Shown: positions 5,718-50,336 of the stretch, in pieces
Numbering within the stretch: position 1 is the stretch's first letter
Layout of the letters: each line of letters starts with the position of its first letter
Source of the DNA: Natribaculum luteum
GTDB taxonomy: Archaea; Halobacteriota; Halobacteria; Halobacteriales; Natrialbaceae
Direction of reading: 5' to 3'
Length of the DNA: 64,000 nucleotides
Assembly: GCF_023008545.1 (NCBI RefSeq)
Contig: NZ_CP095397.1
Coordinates: forward strand, 62,001-126,000
Notes under the pieces: generated by a model
The model's input: the letters and a program-made list of their open reading frames with translations, nothing else
Told to the model about the DNA's origin: nothing
Databases searched by the model: none
Position numbers and translations under genes: made by a program

Positions 5718-6251
5718 TCAGGCACCTCCTTTCTGTGGCTTCTGGGTGATGTAGACGCCGTCCTGGAAGACGCGGGTGTCCTTGCCTTTCACCTTCGTCA
5801 ACTGCTCGATGTCGGCGGCGGTCTGCCCGACGTGCTCTTTGTTCGGGCCCGACAGCGTCAGCTGTTCGCCGTCGACGGAGACGTCGGTGTCACCGTGGAT
5901 AGTCGTTCGTCGCTCTGCCTTCTCGCCAAGGAAGTTCTCGATGACGACCTCCTCACCTTCGACGCGGACCTGCATCGGGAAGTGAGAGTAGAAGACTTCC
6001 ATCTCGTACTCCCAGCCCTCGGTCACGCCGTGGAAGGCGTTTTCGACGTGGCTCTCGAACGTGCCGACGGTCGAGTTCGTCTTCGCGTCGTCGGCGTCGC
6101 TCTCGATGACCACGTGGTCGTCTTCGACCTCGACGGAGACATCGGGGTACCAGAGACGGCGCATGACGCTGCCGTTCGGTCCCTCGACGGTCAGATCGAG
6201 GTGGTCTACCTCGGCGGTTACGTCCTCGGGTATTTCGAGTTCAACTCGCAT
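5718..6251 (-). CDS. rpl6: 50S ribosomal protein L6 (uL6)
   Basis: 177 residues from the ATG at 6251 (MRVELEIPEDV); codons upstream in the same frame overlap rps8 and are not part of the protein. Two uL6 domains are visible: the N-terminal one (VEGPNGSVMRRLWYPDV) and the C-terminal one (HFPMQVRVEGEEV to QLTLSGPNKEHVGQTAADIE). It binds 23S rRNA near the factor-binding site. Gap of 2 bases to rps8. Confidence 0.96.
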   Translation of the reverse strand: MRVELEIPEDVTAEVDHLDLTVEGPNGSVMRRLWYPDVSVEVEDDHVVIESDADDAKTNSTVGTFESHVENAFHGVTEGWEYEMEVFYSHFPMQVRVEGEEVVIENFLGEKAERRTTIHGDTDVSVDGEQLTLSGPNKEHVGQTAADIEQLTKVKGKDTRVFQDGVYITQKPQKGGA

Positions 6252-6253
6252 GG

Positions 6254-6646
6254 TTAGTAGACGTACGCGATCACCTGGCCCCCAATCCCCTGCTCTCGGG
6301 CCTCGTAGTGGCTCATGATGCCACTGCTCGTCGTGACGACGAGCGCGCCGAAGTCTCGAGCCGGGAGGTATCGCTTCTCCCACTTCTCGAAGTCGTCGGC
6401 GCCGGCCGAGTAACGGGGCTTGACGGGGCCGCACTCGTTGATCGCTCCTGTCAGTTCGACCTCGAATCGACCGGCTTTGCCGTCGTCGACGAACTCGAAG
6501 CCGTCGATGTACCCGCGGTCGTAGAAGACCTCGAGTACGCTGCCGATCTCGTTCGAGGCGGGCTGTACCTCGTGGGTGAGATGCCCGACGCTCTCGGCGT
6601 TGTCGAGCCCCGAGAGCGCGTTGCTGAGTGGATCGTTCCCTGTCAT
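6254..6646 (-). CDS. rps8: 30S ribosomal protein S8 (uS8)
   Basis: 130 residues starting at [14 protein letters not shown]; this ATG overlaps the rps14 TGA by 4 bases, which fixes the start over a longer in-frame extension. The C-terminal S8 signature appears as [20 protein letters not shown] followed by GGQVIAYVY. It binds the central domain of 16S rRNA and is needed early in 30S assembly. Confidence 0.96.
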
Positions 6647-6819
6647 CTGTACTTCTTGAATCCCATGTCGCGGGCGATCTCGCGGAAGCACTGCCGACAG
6701 AGGTTGATGTCGTACTTACCGACCAACCCCTGCTTGCGGCCACAGCGTGGGCACTCTTCGTCCTGGCCCGTTCGCTTCGTGGCGTGTTCGCCCGTCTGCT
6801 CGTTCTCGCTTTCGCTCAT
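6643..6819 (-). CDS. rps14: 30S ribosomal protein S14 (uS14), zinc-binding type
   Basis: A 58-residue protein. It carries two CxxC pairs, C23/C26 (CPRC) and C41/C44 (CRQC), which make the zinc ribbon of the short archaeal S14, and ends in the conserved [13 protein letters not shown]. The first 20 residues are an acidic haloarchaeal extension. It overlaps rpl5 and rps8 by 4 bases on each side, as expected in the spc gene order. Confidence 0.96.
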
Positions 6820-7340
6820 TCTGTGACCTCCACGTCGAAGTTCGCCTCGAGGAACGCGATCGCGTCCTCGGGAGTGAGGCGGTGTTTCGACGGAATCGAT
6901 CGGGACGCCTTGTCGCGTTTGGTGACGCGGTATCCCGGGCGCACCAGGTTGACGGTGACGTCCAGTCCGTAGATCCCGACGTTCGGGTCGTACTCCTGGC
7001 TCGGGAAGTCCGTGTGCTCCTCGATACCGAAACTGAAGTTGCCCGTCTCGTCGAACTGATTCGACGAGAGGTCCGCAAGCGGCAGGGCGGTCTCGAGGAA
7101 CTCGGAGGCGTCCTCACCGCGAAGCGTGACCTTCGTGCCGATGGGCTCGCCCTGGCGAATGCCGAAGTCGGGTTCGGTTCGTTTCGCCTGGGTGCGGACG
7201 CTCTGCTGGCCGGTGACGTCTTCGATGATGTCCTCGGCACGGCCGAGGTCGCGGCCACCCTGACCGACGCCCATGTGGACGACGACCTTCTCGACGCGCG
7301 GTTCGCGCATCTCGTGGAAGTCGGCCTCGGCTTCACTCAT
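6816..7340 (-). CDS. rpl5: 50S ribosomal protein L5 (uL5)
   Basis: 174 residues from [14 protein letters not shown]; earlier in-frame codons belong to the overlapping rps4e region. The uL5 signature is clear: [33 protein letters not shown] and [13 protein letters not shown]. It binds 5S rRNA in the central protuberance. It overlaps the end of rps4e by 8 bases. Confidence 0.96.
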
Positions 7341-8037
7341 CGTCCTCACCTCCGACGAAGTTCTCGTCGATGACGACGACGTACTCCTCGATCGTCTCGA
7401 ACTCGCCGTCGTCGGTCTCGACGGTGACGGTGTTCGAGCCACTGCCGAGCGTGACGTCGATCGACGCGATCTCGCCGATCTTGCCGGCGTGGTTGCCGCG
7501 TACGGCGGTCACGAGCGCCCCCTCCTCGTAGGGGAAGTGGGCAACGATTTCCTTGTTCTCGTTGTCGATGACGACCGAGTCTTTCGCGCCGTACTCCTCG
7601 GAGTCGACGGTGACGTTCGTTCCGTCGTGTAGCGACAGCTGCGTGTCGCCGCCTTTGACCTGGCGCTTGTCTTCGACCTTGCCGAGGCGGCTGTCCGCGG
7701 CGTCGGCGTCGATCGGCGTCAGTGCGAGCCGTCCGCCCTCGTCCGGGAAGACGCGGTAGTACTCTTCGAGTCCCTCGAGCGCGATGATGTCGAACATCCC
7801 GATCGGACGGCCCTCGTCGTTGACCGGCTGGCCGTTGACGAGGATCGCGTCCTGACTGAGCGCGTAGCGCGCTTCCTTCCGGGAGTCGACGTGGCCGAGC
7901 ACGTCCCGCAGCAAGATGAGCAGCGGGACGCCGTCCTCACCGTGTGGGCCGGCGCCGGCTTTCACGGTGAAGGTGTCGGTCTTGCGCTCGACCGGCCAGG
8001 ACTTCGGTACCGAGAGTCGCTTCTGGTGGTTCGTCAT
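7333..8037 (-). CDS. rps4e: 30S ribosomal protein S4e (eS4)
   Basis: 234 residues, archaeal/eukaryotic-specific. The order is an N-terminal S4e domain ([20 protein letters not shown]), an S4-like RNA-binding unit ([15 protein letters not shown]), a central domain and a C-terminal KOW-type fold ([15 protein letters not shown]). It overlaps rpl24 by 4 bases. Confidence 0.96.
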
Positions 8038-8390
8038 TCGTTATCACCTTCGAGGCGTGCCTCGCGACGGTCGTCCTCGAGGTCGAGGTCCGTGATCCGG
8101 ACGTTCGACGGCTCGAGCGGCCGGGGGACTTCCTCCCCGTCGGCCGTCTCGATCGTGACGTCCTCGACGTGGATGACCTCCTCTCTGAGATCGACGTTCA
8201 GCACTTCACCTTCCTCTCCGGCGAAGTCGCCGCGCATGACTTCGACCGTGTCGCCCGCGTTGACGCGGGTTCGACGTGTGTCGTACTCCTCGCGGAGCTC
8301 CTCGGAGAGGGTCGCGTGAAGCTGCTTCTGTCGCTGGTGCAGCGGGGCACGCTCTGCGTTGTTTCGCTGTTTGCGTGGTTGTCGGGTCAT
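8034..8390 (-). CDS. rpl24: 50S ribosomal protein L24 (uL24)
   Basis: 118 residues. The KOW motif is at [20 protein letters not shown], preceded by the archaeal N-terminal helix ([20 protein letters not shown]) and followed by a charged tail. The protein binds the 5' part of 23S rRNA and initiates large-subunit assembly. It overlaps rpl14 by 4 bases. Confidence 0.96.
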
Positions 8391-43757: not shown

Positions 43758-45155
43758 ATGCGACTACTGGCGTTCGACGGACGGATGGGGGCGAGTGGCG
43801 ACATGATCCTCGCCGCGTTGCTCGCGGCCGGCGGCGATCCCAACGCACTCGAGCCGGTCGAAGATGCACTGGACCTCGAGTACCGGATCGGGACGACGAC
43901 CAAGTGCGGGATCACGTCGACGACCGTCGACGTCCTGCTGACCGACGAGGAGAGCGGCGATGACGAGCACGCACACGGCGAGAGACACCACGAGCGCCAG
44001 CACGGTGACGATGGCGGTCACGCACACCACCATCACGGCGGCGATCACGACCATCACCATCACGACGAAGCCGGCGACGAGCACGACGGGGACCACCATC
44101 ACCACCACGACCACGGCGACGACGAGCACGACCACGTCCACGCCGAAGGGCATGGCCCCCACCGCAGCTATCGCGAGGTCGTCGACATCGTCGCCGGAAT
44201 GGACCTCCCCGCGTCGGTCGAACGCGACGCCCTCGCGATCTTCGAACTGCTCGGCGAGGCCGAAGCCAGCGTCCACGGCACCGACCTCGAGGAGACCCAC
44301 TTCCACGAGGTCGGCGCGGACGACGCCATCGCGGACGTCGTCGGCGCGGCGCTGTTGCTCGAGGACCTCGAACCCGAGCGCGTCGTGACGACGCCGCTGT
44401 CGACCGGCGGCGGCACGGCGACGATGAGCCACGGCGAGTACCCCGTCCCGACGCCGGCGGTCGTCGAGATCGCCGAACGCGCGGACTGGTCGCTCCAGGG
44501 CGGCCCCGTCGAGGCCGAACTGCTCACACCCACGGGCGCGGCGATCCTCGGGCACGTCGCCGACGGCGTCGACTCCCTGCCCGCGATCGACCTCGAGTCG
44601 TCGGGCTACGGCGCGGGCGGCTACGACCTCGATCCGCACCCGAACGTCCTCCGGGCGCTCGTCGGCGAGGCCGAAGGCGAGCTGATCCGCGACGAGATCA
44701 CCGTCCTCGAGACGAACGTCGACGACGCGACCCCGGAGGTGCTGGGCGGCCTGCAAGAATCTCTCGCGGGCGCGGGCGCACGAGACGTCTCGATCCTCCC
44801 GGCGACGATGAAGAAGTCCCGCCCCGGCCACCTCGTGAAGGTGATCTGCAAACCCGAAGACAGCGAGCGCGTCGCCCGGAGACTCGCCGAAGAGACGGGC
44901 ACTCTGGGCGTTCGCGATACCGGCGTGACCTCCCGCTGGATCGCCGACCGGGCGTTCGAGACGGTCGACCTCGAGGTCGACGGCGAGACCCACGAGGTGA
45001 CGGTGAAAGTGGCGAGTGACGCCGACGGCACGATATACGACGTGAGCGCAGAGTACGACGACGCGGCAGCCGTCGCACGAGAGACCGGATTGCCGACTCG
45101 AGTCGTAGCGGAGCGAGCAGAGGCGACCGTCCGTTCCGATCGTACGGCGGAGTGA
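43758..45155 (+). CDS. larC: LarC-like nickel pincer cofactor cyclometallase with His-rich insert
   Basis: 465 residues. It begins MRLLAFDGRMGASGDMILAA, the LarC start, and has DLEETHFHEVGADDAIADVV, TPTGAAIL, VLETNVDDATPEVLGGLQES and MKKSRPGHLVKVICKPED. Residues 71-136 are a His/Asp-rich insert with more than 30 His, a probable nickel store. LarC puts nickel into the pincer cofactor of LarA-type racemases. No larA, larB or larE is in the window. Confidence 0.93.
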   Translation: MRLLAFDGRMGASGDMILAALLAAGGDPNALEPVEDALDLEYRIGTTTKCGITSTTVDVLLTDEESGDDEHAHGERHHERQHGDDGGHAHHHHGGDHDHHHHDEAGDEHDGDHHHHHDHGDDEHDHVHAEGHGPHRSYREVVDIVAGMDLPASVERDALAIFELLGEAEASVHGTDLEETHFHEVGADDAIADVVGAALLLEDLEPERVVTTPLSTGGGTATMSHGEYPVPTPAVVEIAERADWSLQGGPVEAELLTPTGAAILGHVADGVDSLPAIDLESSGYGAGGYDLDPHPNVLRALVGEAEGELIRDEITVLETNVDDATPEVLGGLQESLAGAGARDVSILPATMKKSRPGHLVKVICKPEDSERVARRLAEETGTLGVRDTGVTSRWIADRAFETVDLEVDGETHEVTVKVASDADGTIYDVSAEYDDAAAVARETGLPTRVVAERAEATVRSDRTAE

Positions 45156-45303
45156 TTCCTCGAGGTCTGCTCGAGGCAGACGATCGGTGACTCGAGTACG
45201 ACCCTGTCGGCTGTTACGTGGCCGCTGCTCGAGACGGCACTCCTCGCGTCGCGTGACGACCGGTCGGCTATCGGCGTCGTTCCGTCGACTCGAGGCCGAT
45301 ACC

Positions 45304-45312
45304 AAATAAAAA
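45304..45312 (-). terminator. T-rich terminator after the 233-aa repeat protein gene
   Basis: On the minus strand CTTTTTATTTGG lies 33 bases after the stop codon at 45345. A similar T-rich stretch (TTTTATTTTTTG, 46687-46697) follows the paralogous gene, about 26 bases after its stop. Both are plausible archaeal terminators. Confidence 0.5.
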
Positions 45313-45344
45313 GAGGTGTTCCAATTGGTCGGGAAGCGACCGTC

Positions 45345-46046
45345 TCAGCCGAAGATGAGCGTGGTCAGGTCGCCGGCCGTGGACGTCGCGTCGGCGTTCT
45401 GCTCGTTGACGTTCGAGGCGTCAGCGTTCTGCTCGATCGTCTGGTCGAGCGTCTGGTCGCCGGTGGTGCCGTCGCCGTCGCCGTCGCCATCTCCGTCGCC
45501 GTCAGCGGACGTATCACCCGGGAACGTACACTCGTCAGTGCCTGCTTTGACTATAACCTCCGAGATTGGCTCTTCAGACGTCCAACTGGCCTGATTCGGT
45601 TCGTTCGGTTCTTTGAATTGGACGTCGGTAATCGTAACGCCCATATCGTCGCCACCTTCTGGAACGAACTCGTTCCCGTTCCACTCGAATTTCACGAGGA
45701 GGTCGCCATCCGTATCGTAGAACTGGATGTTGCTAATCGCCGCGCCGTCAGGGTAGTCACAGTTTAGGACCGTTCCCTCGAACGGCGCTCCGTTGCCGTT
45801 ATCGCCGTTATCGCCATCCACGAGATCGCCGAATGCGTTCTGGACACCGATTTGATTCGCGTTCTGTTCGATCGTGTTCGCCTGCGTTACCTCCTGGGAC
45901 TGCGAGACGCCAGCCGCTGACGACCGCTTGTCGCCGTCGCCAGTCTTGTGCTTGTCGCCACCTGCGGCAGCTGTGCCGGCGAAACCTGCGAACACCATGC
46001 TGCCGACGAGCGCGAGCGTCAGTAGCACTGTGATTGACCTTTTCAT
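45345..46046 (-). CDS. Secreted Gln/Asn-repeat protein, curlin-like, 233 aa
   Basis: From MKRSITVLLTLALVGSMVFA a Sec signal peptide ends near AGTAAAGG. Residues 46-75 (SQSQEVTQANTIEQNANQ) and 195-229 (TTGDQTLDQTIEQNADASN) are Gln/Asn repeat half-units. Between them lies a beta domain (about 80-175) with two Cys, C96 and C173, possibly a disulfide, and a (DG)n spacer. The ends match the 140-aa neighbour closely. I infer a minor subunit or nucleator of an extracellular fibre; no homology search was possible. Confidence 0.8.
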   Translation of the reverse strand: MKRSITVLLTLALVGSMVFAGFAGTAAAGGDKHKTGDGDKRSSAAGVSQSQEVTQANTIEQNANQIGVQNAFGDLVDGDNGDNGNGAPFEGTVLNCDYPDGAAISNIQFYDTDGDLLVKFEWNGNEFVPEGGDDMGVTITDVQFKEPNEPNQASWTSEEPISEVIVKAGTDECTFPGDTSADGDGDGDGDGDGTTGDQTLDQTIEQNADASNVNEQNADATSTAGDLTTLIFG

Positions 46047-46055
46047 AGTTCTTGT

Positions 46056-46284
46056 TTGTCCGGGTGAACGCACACGCACTCGGCAGGTGATTCGATGGAA
46101 CGCGGATCGGCGAAGATCACCGCGCGTAATTTGCCGATCGTGTCTCTGCACCCTGCGTCGCGTGCGCGTTTCCCGGTCGAAATCGACCGTAGCAGGCCAT
46201 ATGAAGGCTGAACACCGTTCAAACTGATATCCACTAACTATATTATTCAATCCCTATTACCATCCGAAATTACAGACGTTCGAT
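46056..46284 (-). promoter_or_regulatory. Duplicated upstream region, copy 1 (233-aa gene)
   Basis: Blocks shared in order and spacing with copy 2: TTGTCCGGGTG (46056-46066), TCCCGGTCGA (46171-46180), CATATGAA (46198-46205), GATATC (46226-46231) and ATTACAGAC (46269-46277). CATATGAA reads TTCATATG on the minus strand and could be the TATA element, giving a leader of about 120 bases. A second, imperfect copy of ATTACAGAC and its next 70 bases lies 85 bases further out (46354-46420). Confidence 0.6.
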
Positions 46285-46420
46285 AGTTTCATACTGTTCA
46301 GTTACTGGAATTATACGGTCTCTGTCGGCGTATTGATTCGGGAATTGTCCCAGATTACAGACATTCAATCGCTTCTGTGGATTATATCACTGTAATTATA
46401 ACATCTCTGTCAGCGTATAG
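46265..46420. repeat. Two imperfect 85-base direct repeats
   Basis: The segment 46265-46337 and the segment 46350-46420 align with a constant shift of 85: both have ATTACAGAC, an AATTATA core and TCTCTGTC followed by GGCGTAT or AGCGTAT. The AT-rich repeats lie in the upstream region of the 233-aa gene. The remaining sequence up to 46683 shows no gene. Confidence 0.6.
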
Positions 46421-46722
46421 ACCGTTGCTACACGCGTCTCACGTCGAGTCGGTGAGAGACGAACCGAACGGGTGATTCGTCGTCGACGCAGTAGCCGTGT
46501 CAGTCATTACCTCAAGGCGGACACATCACACCACGTCAACGAGTGCCTTCCGACTCGAGGGGCTGGCTACACCGCTCGAGGACGGTCCGACGACGCCACT
46601 CGACGGCGTCTCGAGGTAACGTCGATTGGCGAGTCAAGCTATCAATTCGTGTTACTCAGCGATAGTTCGGGGACCGATCAGACGGCAAAAAATAAAATCG
46701 CTAATCGATCGGGGAAATCGGT

Positions 46723-47145
46723 TCAGCCGAGGTTGACAGCCGTCGCGGTGCCGGTCTGGCTGTTCCTGTTCGACGCATCGGCGTTCTGGGTGACGTTCTG
46801 GTTCACCGTCTGGTCACCAGTGGTGCCGATTTCGAGGTTAAATCCGTCGCCATCGTTCGGATCCAGGAGACTCGAGGTCCCCGCAGCAGAAGTTTGGCCG
46901 TTGTTGTTGTCATCCTCACTTATATCGACGTCGACCTCGAGTCCAGTGGATTCCTGCTCGGCATCCTGGTCAGCGTTCTGTACGACGATGTTCCCCTGTT
47001 TCACGTCCTGATCCTGATCGACGGTTGCAACTGCGTGGTCGCCATCCGATGTATCTCCGTCAGCGCCTGCAGCCGCCGTTCCGGCGAAGCCAACAAGCAG
47101 CAGGCTTCCGACGACTACGAGCGTCAGTACTGTGTGTCGTTTCAT
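46723..47145 (-). CDS. Secreted Gln/Asn-repeat protein, curlin-like, 140 aa
   Basis: Signal peptide MKRHTVLTLVVVGSLLLVGF ending near GTAAAGA. Repeat half-units at about 42-65 (VDQDQDVKQGNIVVQNADQD) and 107-137 (TTGDQTVNQNVTQNADASN, NSQTGTATAVN), joined by an acidic Asn-rich linker. It is a shorter paralogue of the 233-aa protein: same signal, same C-terminal TTGDQT and QNADASN. Same strand, separated by 676 bases that hold the neighbour's promoter region. Confidence 0.8.
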   Translation of the reverse strand: MKRHTVLTLVVVGSLLLVGFAGTAAAGADGDTSDGDHAVATVDQDQDVKQGNIVVQNADQDAEQESTGLEVDVDISEDDNNNGQTSAAGTSSLLDPNDGDGFNLEIGTTGDQTVNQNVTQNADASNRNSQTGTATAVNLG

Positions 47146-47154
47146 GGTTTTTGG

Positions 47155-47370
47155 TTGTCCGGGTGGACGCGCACGTGCGGTCGGACGGGACACGGTTCGT
47201 CGCGGATGGCTGCCGCTGGTCGTCTTCATCCGCGATTCACCCGCCGTTCGTGGCGCGTCTCCCGGTCGAGGCTCTCACCGGTGGTTCATATGAACCCAAA
47301 CCACGGTTTCAGCCGATATCTCGAGTTTGACCGCACTGTTTCGACTGATATTCGAAATTACAGACAATCG
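47155..47370 (-). promoter_or_regulatory. Duplicated upstream region, copy 2 (140-aa gene)
   Basis: Shares with copy 1 TTGTCCGGGTG (47155-47165), TCCCGGTCGA (47260-47269), CATATGAA (47287-47294), GATATC (47315-47320) and CGAAATTACAGACAATCG (47353-47370). Each block is about 10 bases closer to the start codon than in copy 1. The preserved order argues for a duplication of gene plus promoter and for common regulation. Confidence 0.6.
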
Positions 47371-47808
47371 GTCGATCGTGACCACCATACCAAAACTGGG
47401 TTGAGATTACGACAACGATGGACGACCGAATCTCGATTTTACGGGCGGTCTATGGCCTCGCTACCCGAAACACGCACTCCTATCCAACTCCTACTTTCCC
47501 CTACGCAACAGTTACTCGAGTGAACTAACAGCTACTCGCGATTGTGCCGTCACCGAGGGAGTCACATCGAGATGACTGTTGTGGACGCTCTCGGTCCATT
47601 TAGACCACGCTATCGCTATCGTGGGCCTATCGGCGGCCGTCGATCACCGAGGACATCGGGGAACGGCCCGAATCTGGGCCCGTAAGGGAGTGACTTCGGT
47701 GCTGGTAGCCTCCTTCTTCTCTACGACAACGTACAGATAACAAAGTCATTCATCCGGATACGATGGTTCGCAGTGCACAGACCTAGAAACAAAAGACCCT
47801 CACAGGGC
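47371..47808. other. Gene-free spacer before the large repeat protein
   Basis: Between the promoter of the 140-aa gene (minus) and the 544-aa gene (plus). Only very short frames exist (for example 36 codons from 47418) with no supporting features. Presumably regulatory; nothing else recognised. Confidence 0.4.
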
Positions 47809-47821
47809 ATTTCAAAGAAAT
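47809..47821 (+). promoter_or_regulatory. Perfect palindrome at the promoter of the 544-aa gene
   Basis: ATTTC-AAA-GAAAT, a perfect 13-base inverted repeat centred 20 bases before the ATG at 47835. Its core TTTCAAA is where a TATA box of a leaderless gene would sit, so a repressor bound here would block transcription. Inference from position and symmetry. Confidence 0.4.
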
Positions 47822-47834
47822 CGGAACACACAGA

Positions 47835-49469
47835 ATGACAGCACGGTCACGGATTACGACAGTTCTCGTCGTCGCGATGCTCGTCGTCTCGATGGTCGCG
47901 GCCGCGCCGGCGGCCGGGGTCGAAGAGGACCAAGAGCAGCCAAGCGAGGGCGACCTCGAGGTGACCGAAGACCAGGTCAGAAGTCCCGTCCAGGCACTCG
48001 AGGACGGCGAAGATCTCTATCTGGTCTTTGGCGCGGACCTCAACGGGACGTCCATCGAAGAGTACGTAGAAGCGCACGCGTCTAGTGACGGAATCGTCGC
48101 GACCTCGTCGTCGCAGGAGAACGTCAACCGGCAAGAGGGCGAGGCATCGTCGGCAGGGGCCAGCGCGGACGTCGTCCAGTACCAGGACGTCCAGCAGGTC
48201 AACATCAACGTCCAGGACAACGCGACTGCCATCTCCATCGACGGCGGAGAGGCGGAGGCGATTCAGGAGGCGACACAGTCGAACGTCAACCAGCAGACCG
48301 GTGAAGCGTCGGCAGCGAACGTCGCGCTCGACCCACAGGAGTTCAACTTCGAGAACGTCGGCAACGTCTACCTCGTCATGGGTGAAGGCAGCGCGCCGAC
48401 GTTCGACGGCTGGGTCGTCGCCGACAAGAAAGGGAAGGCGGTTTCCCAGAAAGCCTGGGCATCCGTCGCACAGGGCCAGGACGCCGGCCAGCTGAACTAC
48501 AACGAACAGAGCGTGTCGCTCGCGATCGCCGAGAACGGCAGTAACGCGACCACCTTCCAGCAGACGACGCAGTACAACGAGAACCGCCAGGAAGGTGCTG
48601 CGAACGCGTCCAACGTGTACGCGGGCTACGCCAAAGCCAGCGATCAGGTGTCCGCCGACGCCGCGTCCGGCGTCTACCAGGACCAGGACGTCGAGCAGAC
48701 CAACATCAACGAACAGAGCTACGCGGTCGCCATCGCGATCGGTGAGAACAGCACGGCAACGGCCGTCCAGCTCACCGAGCAGACCAACGTCAACCTACAG
48801 TACGGCACCGCGCAAGCGGTGAACGTGCTGAGCGCGATGGCCGGCATGAACACGGCGACTGCCGGCGGTGACGGCGGCAGCCCGGTTACGACGTTCGGCG
48901 AAGAGAAAGACGGTGGAAACGACGAGAAGAAACAAAAGAAGAAAGAGAAGGGCCACGACGTCGATGGCGGTGAACAGGTGGCCGAGGCGCGGGTCACCCA
49001 GTACCAGAACGCCACGCAGGTCAACGTCAACCTTCAGAATAGCGCTATCGCGATCGCGACGAACGGAAGCGACGCGACTGCTGTTCAGATCTCCTACCAG
49101 GAGAATATCAACACGCAGATCGGCTACTCCGAGGCGGTCAACGCCTACCTGGGTGGCGGCTACGCCCAGGAGGGTCTCGTCTACTCTGACCAGACGGCGG
49201 TCACGATCGACGGGAACGATGGAACTGGCGACCAGCTCGTGTCCTTCGACTACGACACGAATAGCGAACAGACCCAGGAAGTCGATCAGAGCGTGTCTGC
49301 AGTCGTCGAGCAGGTCCAGTTCATCAGACAACAGAACCTGAACGAACAGAGCGCCGCGATCGCGGTCGCCGACGACGGCGGTAACGCTGGCGCAGCGCAA
49401 GTGAGCATGCAGGCGAACGAGAACGTCCAGTTCGCCTCCGCCCAGGCGGCGAACTTCCAGGTCTGCTAG
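47835..49469 (+). CDS. Secreted protein with five curlin-like Gln/Asn repeats, 544 aa
   Basis: Sec signal peptide (residues 1-27, LVVAMLVVSMVAAAPAAG). Five repeats of about 51 residues lie at 113-163, 211-261, 279-331, 387-437 and 491-541, with a half unit at 93-109. The consensus is V-x-Q-x-Q-x3-Q-x-N-x-N-x-Q-x2-A-x-A-I-A, then G-x2-A-x-A-x-Q-x3-Q-x-N-x-N-x-Q-x-G-x-A-x-A-x-N. This is the spacing of curlin-type strand-turn-strand units. Linkers include two YLV-x-G segments and a Lys-rich loop (361-373). The last residue but none other is Cys. I infer an amyloid-like or beta-solenoid fibre subunit. Confidence 0.85.
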   Translation: MTARSRITTVLVVAMLVVSMVAAAPAAGVEEDQEQPSEGDLEVTEDQVRSPVQALEDGEDLYLVFGADLNGTSIEEYVEAHASSDGIVATSSSQENVNRQEGEASSAGASADVVQYQDVQQVNINVQDNATAISIDGGEAEAIQEATQSNVNQQTGEASAANVALDPQEFNFENVGNVYLVMGEGSAPTFDGWVVADKKGKAVSQKAWASVAQGQDAGQLNYNEQSVSLAIAENGSNATTFQQTTQYNENRQEGAANASNVYAGYAKASDQVSADAASGVYQDQDVEQTNINEQSYAVAIAIGENSTATAVQLTEQTNVNLQYGTAQAVNVLSAMAGMNTATAGGDGGSPVTTFGEEKDGGNDEKKQKKKEKGHDVDGGEQVAEARVTQYQNATQVNVNLQNSAIAIATNGSDATAVQISYQENINTQIGYSEAVNAYLGGGYAQEGLVYSDQTAVTIDGNDGTGDQLVSFDYDTNSEQTQEVDQSVSAVVEQVQFIRQQNLNEQSAAIAVADDGGNAGAAQVSMQANENVQFASAQAANFQVC

Positions 49470-49595
49470 CACCGATTTCGTCGCACACCCTCGAGATTCG
49501 AGGGCGTGACTGCGAAGATTTCTTTCGATACGTCACACACGAGGAGCGGAAGCTGTCGCGACTCTCGGAAGCAGTGACGACGCCTCGAGTCGCCC

Positions 49596-50336
49596 TTACT
49601 GGTTCTCGCCGTCGCCTCGATGTTCCGACAGCGCCTCCTCGATCGTCAACTCGCCCGTCGCGACGCGGCGTGCGAGCACCTCGTCGATCGCCCGGTTGGT
49701 CTCGCTTCGCTCGCGGGAGCGATCCTTGATCACCTGCAACTCGCCGGCCGTCGGTTCGACCTCGCGCGTGTCGACGACCTCCCCCTCGAGACGGGCGATG
49801 TTGACCGCCGCCAGGACGTCGCCCATCCCGCGCGTGCCGGTACCGAGGTAGGGCGTGGTGCCGGTTTCGTCGACGACTTCGACCCGGACGTCCTCGAGGT
49901 CGTTGACCAGTTGCGAACCCTGGAGGCGCGCGCCGTCGCCGATCCTGACGACGGGGTCGGGCGCGTCCGCGACCTCGCGTTCGATCACGTCGACGGCGTC
50001 GGCGAGTGGCACCTGGAACGCCGCGACGACGACGTCGCCGGCCAGCACGGCGATACCCGGTTTCCGTCCGGGGTCGACGCCGACGACGGTTCGACCGCCA
50101 GTACCCCGGAGTGCGGCCAGGGCCCCGTCGACGGCGCGTCTCGGCTCGTCCGGTTCGGCGACGACGGTCGGAACGGTCGCGAACGCGTCGGCGTGGCCCT
50201 CGTCGGTGACGACGACGGCTGTCCGGTCGGGAAGGTCGTCGTCGGGTTCGATCGTCGTGAAGGTCACGCCACGGTCGCGAAGCTCGCTGACGACGCCGTG
50301 GTAGACCTCGAAATCTTCCGTCGCGACGACGATCAC
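49596..50336 (-). CDS. RuvC/RNase H-fold protein divergent from radB
   Basis: 246 residues from a GTG (50336). Residues 1-75 form a small alpha/beta domain; from 83 the RNase H-like part starts with TVVGVDPGRKPGIAVLAGD, close to the RuvC first strand (Asp88). Further acidic candidates are Asp134 (RIGDGARLQG) and Asp173 (GMGDVLAAVNIARLEG, like the C-terminal RuvC helix). A helical tail follows. It is a conserved haloarchaeal protein to my knowledge without assigned function; nuclease activity is inference. Confidence 0.72.
   Translation of the reverse strand: MIVVATEDFEVYHGVVSELRDRGVTFTTIEPDDDLPDRTAVVVTDEGHADAFATVPTVVAEPDEPRRAVDGALAALRGTGGRTVVGVDPGRKPGIAVLAGDVVVAAFQVPLADAVDVIEREVADAPDPVVRIGDGARLQGSQLVNDLEDVRVEVVDETGTTPYLGTGTRGMGDVLAAVNIARLEGEVVDTREVEPTAGELQVIKDRSRERSETNRAIDEVLARRVATGELTIEEALSEHRGDGENQ

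Follow-up and report, generated by a model that had tools for sequence, protein, structure and literature searches.

A 64,000-nucleotide stretch of the Natribaculum luteum genome (NZ_CP095397.1, positions 62,001 to 126,000; hereafter the window, whose numbering is used throughout) encodes at 45345-49469 a large, putatively secreted protein of 544 amino acids (aa) built from five Gln/Asn-rich units, together with two small proteins of 140 and 233 aa that each carry one such unit. The large protein belongs to an unnamed family that has no curated Pfam or NCBIfam match, and all members tested fit five units in a fixed order. Besides this order and the shared unit, the family is characterized by a conserved linkage to genes for one-unit partners, by anchored variants and by selection on the large gene. 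Tentatively, and with slightly less than even confidence, we interpret the locus as part of a conserved haloarchaeal surface-structure system in which the five-unit protein and its one-unit partners form an extracellular fibre or coat. An original prediction made from the letters of the DNA had described a single locus of three secreted products with a common repeat, a large subunit accompanied by small relatives, and had likened it to bacterial curli. The three open reading frames (544 aa at 47835-49469 on the plus strand, and 140 aa from the ATG at 47145 and 233 aa from the ATG at 46046 on the minus strand) and the large-and-small layout of one locus held up, the linkage being conserved across many genera; membership in the curlin family did not.

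The five-unit family and its one-unit partners

The earlier reading of five repeats with Gln, Asn, Ala, and Gly at fixed spacings is borne out, with units of about 52-54 residues rather than the estimated 51 and with unit anchors at residues 115, 213, 282, 389, and 493. The motif Q.Q...Q.N occurs five times in the 544-aa protein (mean 0.07 and maximum 3 in 5000 shuffles), and the longer motif Q...Q.N.N.Q...A.A occurs four times (0.0002 in shuffles). The alternating positions of the units read A.V.Q.Q.V.Q.N.N.Q..A.A.A...S.A.A.Q...Q.N.N.Q.G.A.A.N, and among 336 units collected from relatives the conserved positions are A1, V3, Q5, Q7, V9, Q11, N13, N15, and Q17, followed by a one-residue shift, A20, A22, and A24, a turn at 26-28, and then A30, A32, Q34, Q38, N40, N42, Q44, G46, A48, A50, and N52. 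Nine of these (Q5, Q7, Q11, N13, Q34, Q38, N40, N42, and Q44) are 99-100% conserved, and the residues in between are variable and often acidic or hydrophobic. Such alternation would suit a strand whose buried face is made of Gln, Asn, and Ala. The large protein as a whole shows no enrichment of N-glycosylation sequons (8 vs 6.0 expected); across the 336 units they fall most often on position 26, at the turn (102 units).

Searching 61 genomes with a single sequence gave relatives in 29, all of them Natrialbaceae, and a profile search of the class was positive in 60 of 292 genomes, nearly all Natrialbaceae, with a few full-length members in two other families; the named contigs with the family come from many Natrialbaceae genera and from Haladaptatus, Halegenticoccus, and Halomicrococcus. 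Of the 129 large proteins examined, a set in which some genomes occur twice, every one has exactly five units. Classified by sequence pattern, with twin-arginine motifs such as RRGYL marking the twin-arginine translocation (Tat) class, these proteins comprise 89 with general secretory (Sec) signals and no anchor, 17 with Sec signals and a PGF-CTERM-like tail, and 23 with a Tat-like N-terminus and mostly a Lys-rich tail. The PGF-CTERM tail was confirmed by curated models in two of the contigs (L022 and L027; 36.5 bits against a cut-off of 24.5). When units are compared across the Sec/Tat divide, 591 of 645 have their best match in the unit with the same ordinal, so the distinctness of the five positions predates the split of these classes. 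The closest relative found of the large protein, in Natribaculum breve, is 89% identical, and the ratio of nonsynonymous to synonymous substitution rates (dN/dS) between the two is 0.18, which indicates purifying selection on the large gene.

Half-units had been proposed for both small products, and the unit profile indeed matches a first half (positions 1-20) and a second half (34-53) flanking an insert. In both proteins half 1 lies near the mature N-terminus, half 2 is C-terminal, and the insert falls where the turn would be. The match of the 140-aa protein (18.5 bits) was reached by none of 1999 shuffles; that of the 233-aa protein is weak alone (9.0 bits, reached by one of 1999), and this protein resembles the 140-aa one at E 6e-13, a similarity that stems partly from the signal peptide. 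Small relatives in other genera have the same split layout, a permuted arrangement with half 2 before half 1 (L061, L048, L051, and L049), or an intact unit (L041). A search of the N. luteum genome with the 140-aa protein found no further matching place. The insert of about 140 residues in the 233-aa protein (45432-45854, minus strand) may be a separate domain, and L042 and L044 have long inserts related to it. In Haladaptatus salinisoli at least four one-unit secreted proteins are encoded in tandem (L196:5896-7852, plus strand), and that genome has 25 unit matches in all.

The gene order in many Natrialbaceae is CDC48 (minus), LarC (plus), at least one small gene (minus), the large gene (plus), an uncharacterized gene (minus), and RadB (plus), with one to four divergent small partners per large gene. 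Among 79 distinct loci having more than 3 kilobases upstream, a divergent small homolog is present at 43 of 52 Sec loci, 7 of 11 Sec loci with a PGF-CTERM-like tail, and none of 16 Tat loci, with a single match on the downstream side overall; these counts are somewhat favourable because the small-protein profile was partly trained on the counted loci. By the unit profile alone the corresponding counts are 25 of 52, 6 of 11, and 0 of 16.

Table 1. Coordinates of the large and small genes, their units, and the upstream elements in the window
Feature	Coordinates	Strand	Remarks
Large secreted protein, 544 aa, five Gln/Asn-ladder units	47835..49469	+	full-length relatives in most sampled Natrialbaceae genomes; dN/dS 0.18 vs Natribaculum breve
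Large protein, putative Sec-type signal peptide, residues ~1-27	47835..47915	+	sequence pattern MTARSRITTVLVVAMLVVSMVAAAPAAG
Large protein, partial sixth half-unit, residues 91-107	48105..48155	+	profile positions 35-51, 11.2 bits
Large protein, unit 1, residues 111-164	48165..48326	+	64.2 bits
Large protein, unit 2, residues 209-263	48459..48623	+	62.0 bits
Large protein, unit 3, residues 280-332	48672..48830	+	70.7 bits
Large protein, unit 4, residues 385-438	48987..49148	+	71.8 bits
Large protein, unit 5, residues 489-542	49299..49460	+	62.8 bits
Small secreted protein, 140 aa, single unit split by ~50-60-residue insert	46723..47145	-	18.5 bits vs maximum 9.2 in 1999 shuffles
140-aa protein, half-unit 1	46966..47028	-	profile match from residue 40
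140-aa protein, half-unit 2, residues 119-139	46729..46791	-	profile positions 33-53
Small secreted protein, 233 aa, single degenerate unit split by ~140-residue insert	45345..46046	-	9.0 bits, 1/1999 shuffles as high; similar to 140-aa protein (E 6e-13 including signal peptide)
233-aa protein, half-unit 1, residues 45-64	45855..45914	-	profile positions 1-20
233-aa protein, half-unit 2, residues 206-223	45378..45431	-	profile positions 34-51
Upstream element, core GTCTGTAATTTCG, ~221-235 bases before 233-aa start	46267..46281	-	13-base core just twice in 4.6 Mb genome
Second copy of element before 233-aa gene, one mismatch	46352..46366	-	
Matching element, ~210-224 bases before 140-aa start	47355..47369	-	first nine core bases also at -231 in Natribaculum breve

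Predicted fold and relation to curli and other known systems

The resemblance to CsgA and CsgB of curli lies in secreted repeats with regularly spaced Gln, Asn, Ala, and Gly, in a Gln/Asn ladder, and in a main subunit with minor relatives. Curlin repeats are 22-23 residues long, with an N-x-psi-x-psi-x-Q kernel and X-G-X-X arcs twice per turn (PMC10192328), and their number varies widely (PMC3521004). The units described here differ in being about 54 residues long, with predicted strands of 26-31 residues, fixed at five and preceded by Sec or Tat signals rather than exported by CsgG, and there is no detectable homology. The curlin model PF07012 matched none of the three proteins at E ≤ 1, nor did its search of the N. 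luteum genome yield a match, whereas the controls were detected (Escherichia coli CsgA at 95.8 bits and the haloarchaeal protein of L033 at 152.8 bits). The kernel occurs once and QX10Q three times in the 544 aa of the large protein, as compared with 5 and 7 in the 151-aa CsgA and 6 and 10 in CsgB. A profile-profile comparison with hhalign against a curlin profile built from just 7 proteins gave a score of 7.7 over one aligned column, equaled by 13 of 40 column shuffles. Genome-wide, the best match to the CsgG model PF03783 scored 10.8 bits, below the cut-off of 20.8; CsgE and CsgF were not searched for. Given that PF07012 does not match, the kernel is nearly absent, the profile score is at the level of shuffles, and CsgG was not found, we conclude that the family is not curlin.

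Among archaea, one unnamed protein with curli-like repeats has been reported by Dueholm et al. (PMC3521004). We found two haloarchaeal proteins, both with signal peptides, that truly match PF07012 (L033:1300-2037, minus strand, genome G028; L120:994-1617, plus strand, genome G215); they are of a type distinct from the five-unit family and uncommon in the class, with just 2 of 292 genomes scoring over the cut-off. The protein mentioned by Dueholm et al. may be of the G028 type. Curli-like appearance and curlin homology can be told apart here, as another haloarchaeon has a real curlin-repeat protein and the five-unit family does not belong to that type.

Structure prediction had been expected to give one solenoid turn per half repeat. 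Instead, AlphaFold2 modeled the full 544-aa protein (30 sequences) with two strands per unit, mostly of 21-32 residues, at a predicted template modelling score (pTM) of 0.54 and a block predicted local distance difference test score (pLDDT) of about 80-93 in most units, and residues 104-335 (62 sequences) with six strands of 26-31 residues at pTM 0.52; these lengths are model spans that do not distinguish a straight from a bent course. A Foldseek run against 350,542 chains returned for the full model four matches at E ≤ 10, namely Pontibacter CsgA 8c50 (0.61), two FapC entries, and tapirin. For the submodel it returned 23 weak matches led by FapC 9u4u (E 0.069, template modelling (TM) score 0.09), with SufB/SufD, tapirin, ice-binding proteins, CsgA 8enq, and HET-s lower in the list. 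None of the matches to either model is significant. With VIA, the full model reached Z 3.1 against 8c50 and the submodel had no match at Z 2 or more; the search with the submodel gave no clearer picture than that with the full model. The recurrence of amyloids and beta-solenoids among these matches is suggestive, and no more, of local parallel stacking.

FapC of Pseudomonas resembles the large protein in having repeat units joined by variable linkers and, as 9u4u, is the top though not significant Foldseek match of the submodel. A family-profile sequence search of the PDB found no amyloid chain, and PDB sequence searches gave chance matches only. The sheath proteins of Methanospirillum and Methanothrix (SH and MspA) form an archaeal extracellular cross-beta protein layer (PMC10593813); they belong to a different lineage, and no sequence or fold match to them turned up, a direct comparison not being part of these searches. 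The PGF-CTERM tail (TIGR04126) of archaeosortase substrates, present in some family members, is absent from the large protein of the window, which ends in ...ANFQVC and does not reach the curated TIGR04126 model.

Candidate modes of assembly and rival explanations

All three products had been predicted to carry Sec-type signal peptides, and, judged by sequence, their N-termini do look like such signals, combining a positive start, a hydrophobic stretch, and an A-x-A site. In the interpretation that we favour, that of an extracellular fibre or coat, each unit would be a strand-turn-strand element with one face carrying the conserved Gln/Asn/Ala ladder; the large protein would be exported by Sec, fold outside the cell into a five-layer beta scaffold, and join the small one-unit proteins via matching ladder faces; polymerization may then proceed from end to end or be mediated by the small proteins. 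In some lineages an archaeosortase would tether the large protein to the cell, and the paralogous group, which lacks small partners, would be exported by Tat. Several points weigh against this interpretation. The association of large and small proteins is a proposal drawn from linkage and shared sequence, the larger of the linkage counts are somewhat inflated by the training of the profile, and no conserved export or assembly gene was seen beside the family, whose neighbours are CDC48, LarC, and RadB. Literature searches found no expression, localization, or fibre data for the family, and the structural models (pTM 0.52-0.54) gave no significant match, with a best fold E of 0.069, TM scores of 0.14 or less, and VIA Z of at most 3.1.

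A true archaeal curli system, with the large protein as a CsgA homolog and the small ones as CsgB-like nucleators, would account for the export-signal-like N-termini, the five Gln/Asn/Ala-rich repeats, the large-and-small layout, and the first rank of Pontibacter CsgA 8c50 in the Foldseek search with the full model. It is highly improbable in view of the missing PF07012 match, the scarcity of kernel and QX10Q, the shuffle-level profile score, the missing CsgG, and the strict number of units, which contrasts with the widely varying repeat number of curlins (PMC3521004). Membership in the curlin sequence family is refuted by the profile scan, the profile-profile comparison with shuffled controls, and the kernel counts. 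The constancy of the unit number, together with Tat-type paralogs that would be exported folded, argues that the large protein is a scaffold of defined fold and not an open-ended repeat of the curli type. Low-complexity composition is common among surface proteins of halophiles, and acidic, Gln/Asn-rich secreted proteins might merely seem repetitive and share no common function. A compositional artefact of this kind has a negligible probability and is refuted by the invariant spacing, the shuffle tests, the purifying selection seen in dN/dS, and the conserved linkage.

A folded five-unit beta-solenoid adhesin or surface scaffold that acts as a monomer and does not polymerize, with the small proteins as independent relatives or ligands, is somewhat unlikely in our judgement; it agrees with the fixed number and position-specific character of the units, as in a defined domain, with the Tat-type N-termini of the paralogous group, as Tat exports folded proteins, and with the solenoid adhesin tapirin among the weak fold matches. 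Against it, small one-unit genes are linked to most Sec-type loci, which suggests co-assembly, and single units seem too small for a stand-alone solenoid. Amyloid character of the five-unit system is possible. Biofilms of Haloferax volcanii bind Congo red and thioflavin T, and the genetic determinant of this amyloid staining in haloarchaeal biofilms is unknown (PMC4180959). We consider it unlikely that the system is a functional amyloid of independent origin, strictly defined by cross-beta structure, dye binding, and self-seeding. Such an amyloid would fit the Gln/Asn ladder along one strand face, the closest (not significant) solved structures, CsgA and FapC, and the dye binding of the H. volcanii biofilms. 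Against it, the case is built from sequence and model, the Tat-type paralogs imply folding before export, and the family is not shown in H. volcanii, its hosts being mainly Natrialbaceae, Haladaptatus, Halegenticoccus, and Halomicrococcus.

In Bacillota the unit is rare: among 398 sampled Bacillota genomes it was found in one, a metagenome-assembled genome labeled Thermincola, where a Bacillota-like contig (L195, 36% G+C, 5992-8304, plus strand) encodes three tandem two-unit proteins with no evident signal peptide. Their genes sit between YheC/D-type ATP-grasp genes and a PGA_cap gene. YheC/D proteins are associated with the endospore coat, and from these neighbours a spore-coat role of the two-unit proteins may be guessed. 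A more far-reaching proposal compatible with these observations, which we regard as quite doubtful, would be an archaeal functional amyloid independent of curli and Fap, in which a strictly five-layer scaffold is polymerized or capped by single-layer secreted partners via shared Gln/Asn ladder faces, which occurs in Sec-released, archaeosortase-anchored, and Tat-exported versions, and whose Bacillota branch, with no evident signal peptides, may serve in the spore coat. The family supplies genes that can be named, a well-defined unit, a natural set of partners (one five-unit protein with one to four one-unit proteins), and three export or anchoring variants, so that it can now be tested directly whether Gln/Asn-ladder structures are made by haloarchaea.

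Further searches, upstream elements, and a neighbouring gene

Scans of the three proteins against Pfam, NCBIfam, and PHROGs gave no family above cut-off, an Rfam search of 45150-49600 found nothing, and no account of the five-unit family turned up in literature searches. A BFVD search gave no significant viral match, and two scans of viral contigs found no relatives.

An element with the common core GTCTGTAATYTCG lies some 210-235 bases ahead of the start codon of both small genes, and the 4.6-Mb host genome contains no other copies of this core. In Natribaculum breve the first nine bases of the core (GTCTGTAAT) are found at -231. The confinement of the 13-base core to the two small genes implies either that a regulator is dedicated to them or that their 5' leader is long. 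Separately, a GTGATGCGTGCCTC-like stretch recurs about 20-30 bases before the start codons of small genes in several genera (L046, L048, L050, L053, and L054). The LarC-type nickel insertion protein encoded at 43758-45155 on the plus strand has a long His/Asp-rich insert that probably binds metal.

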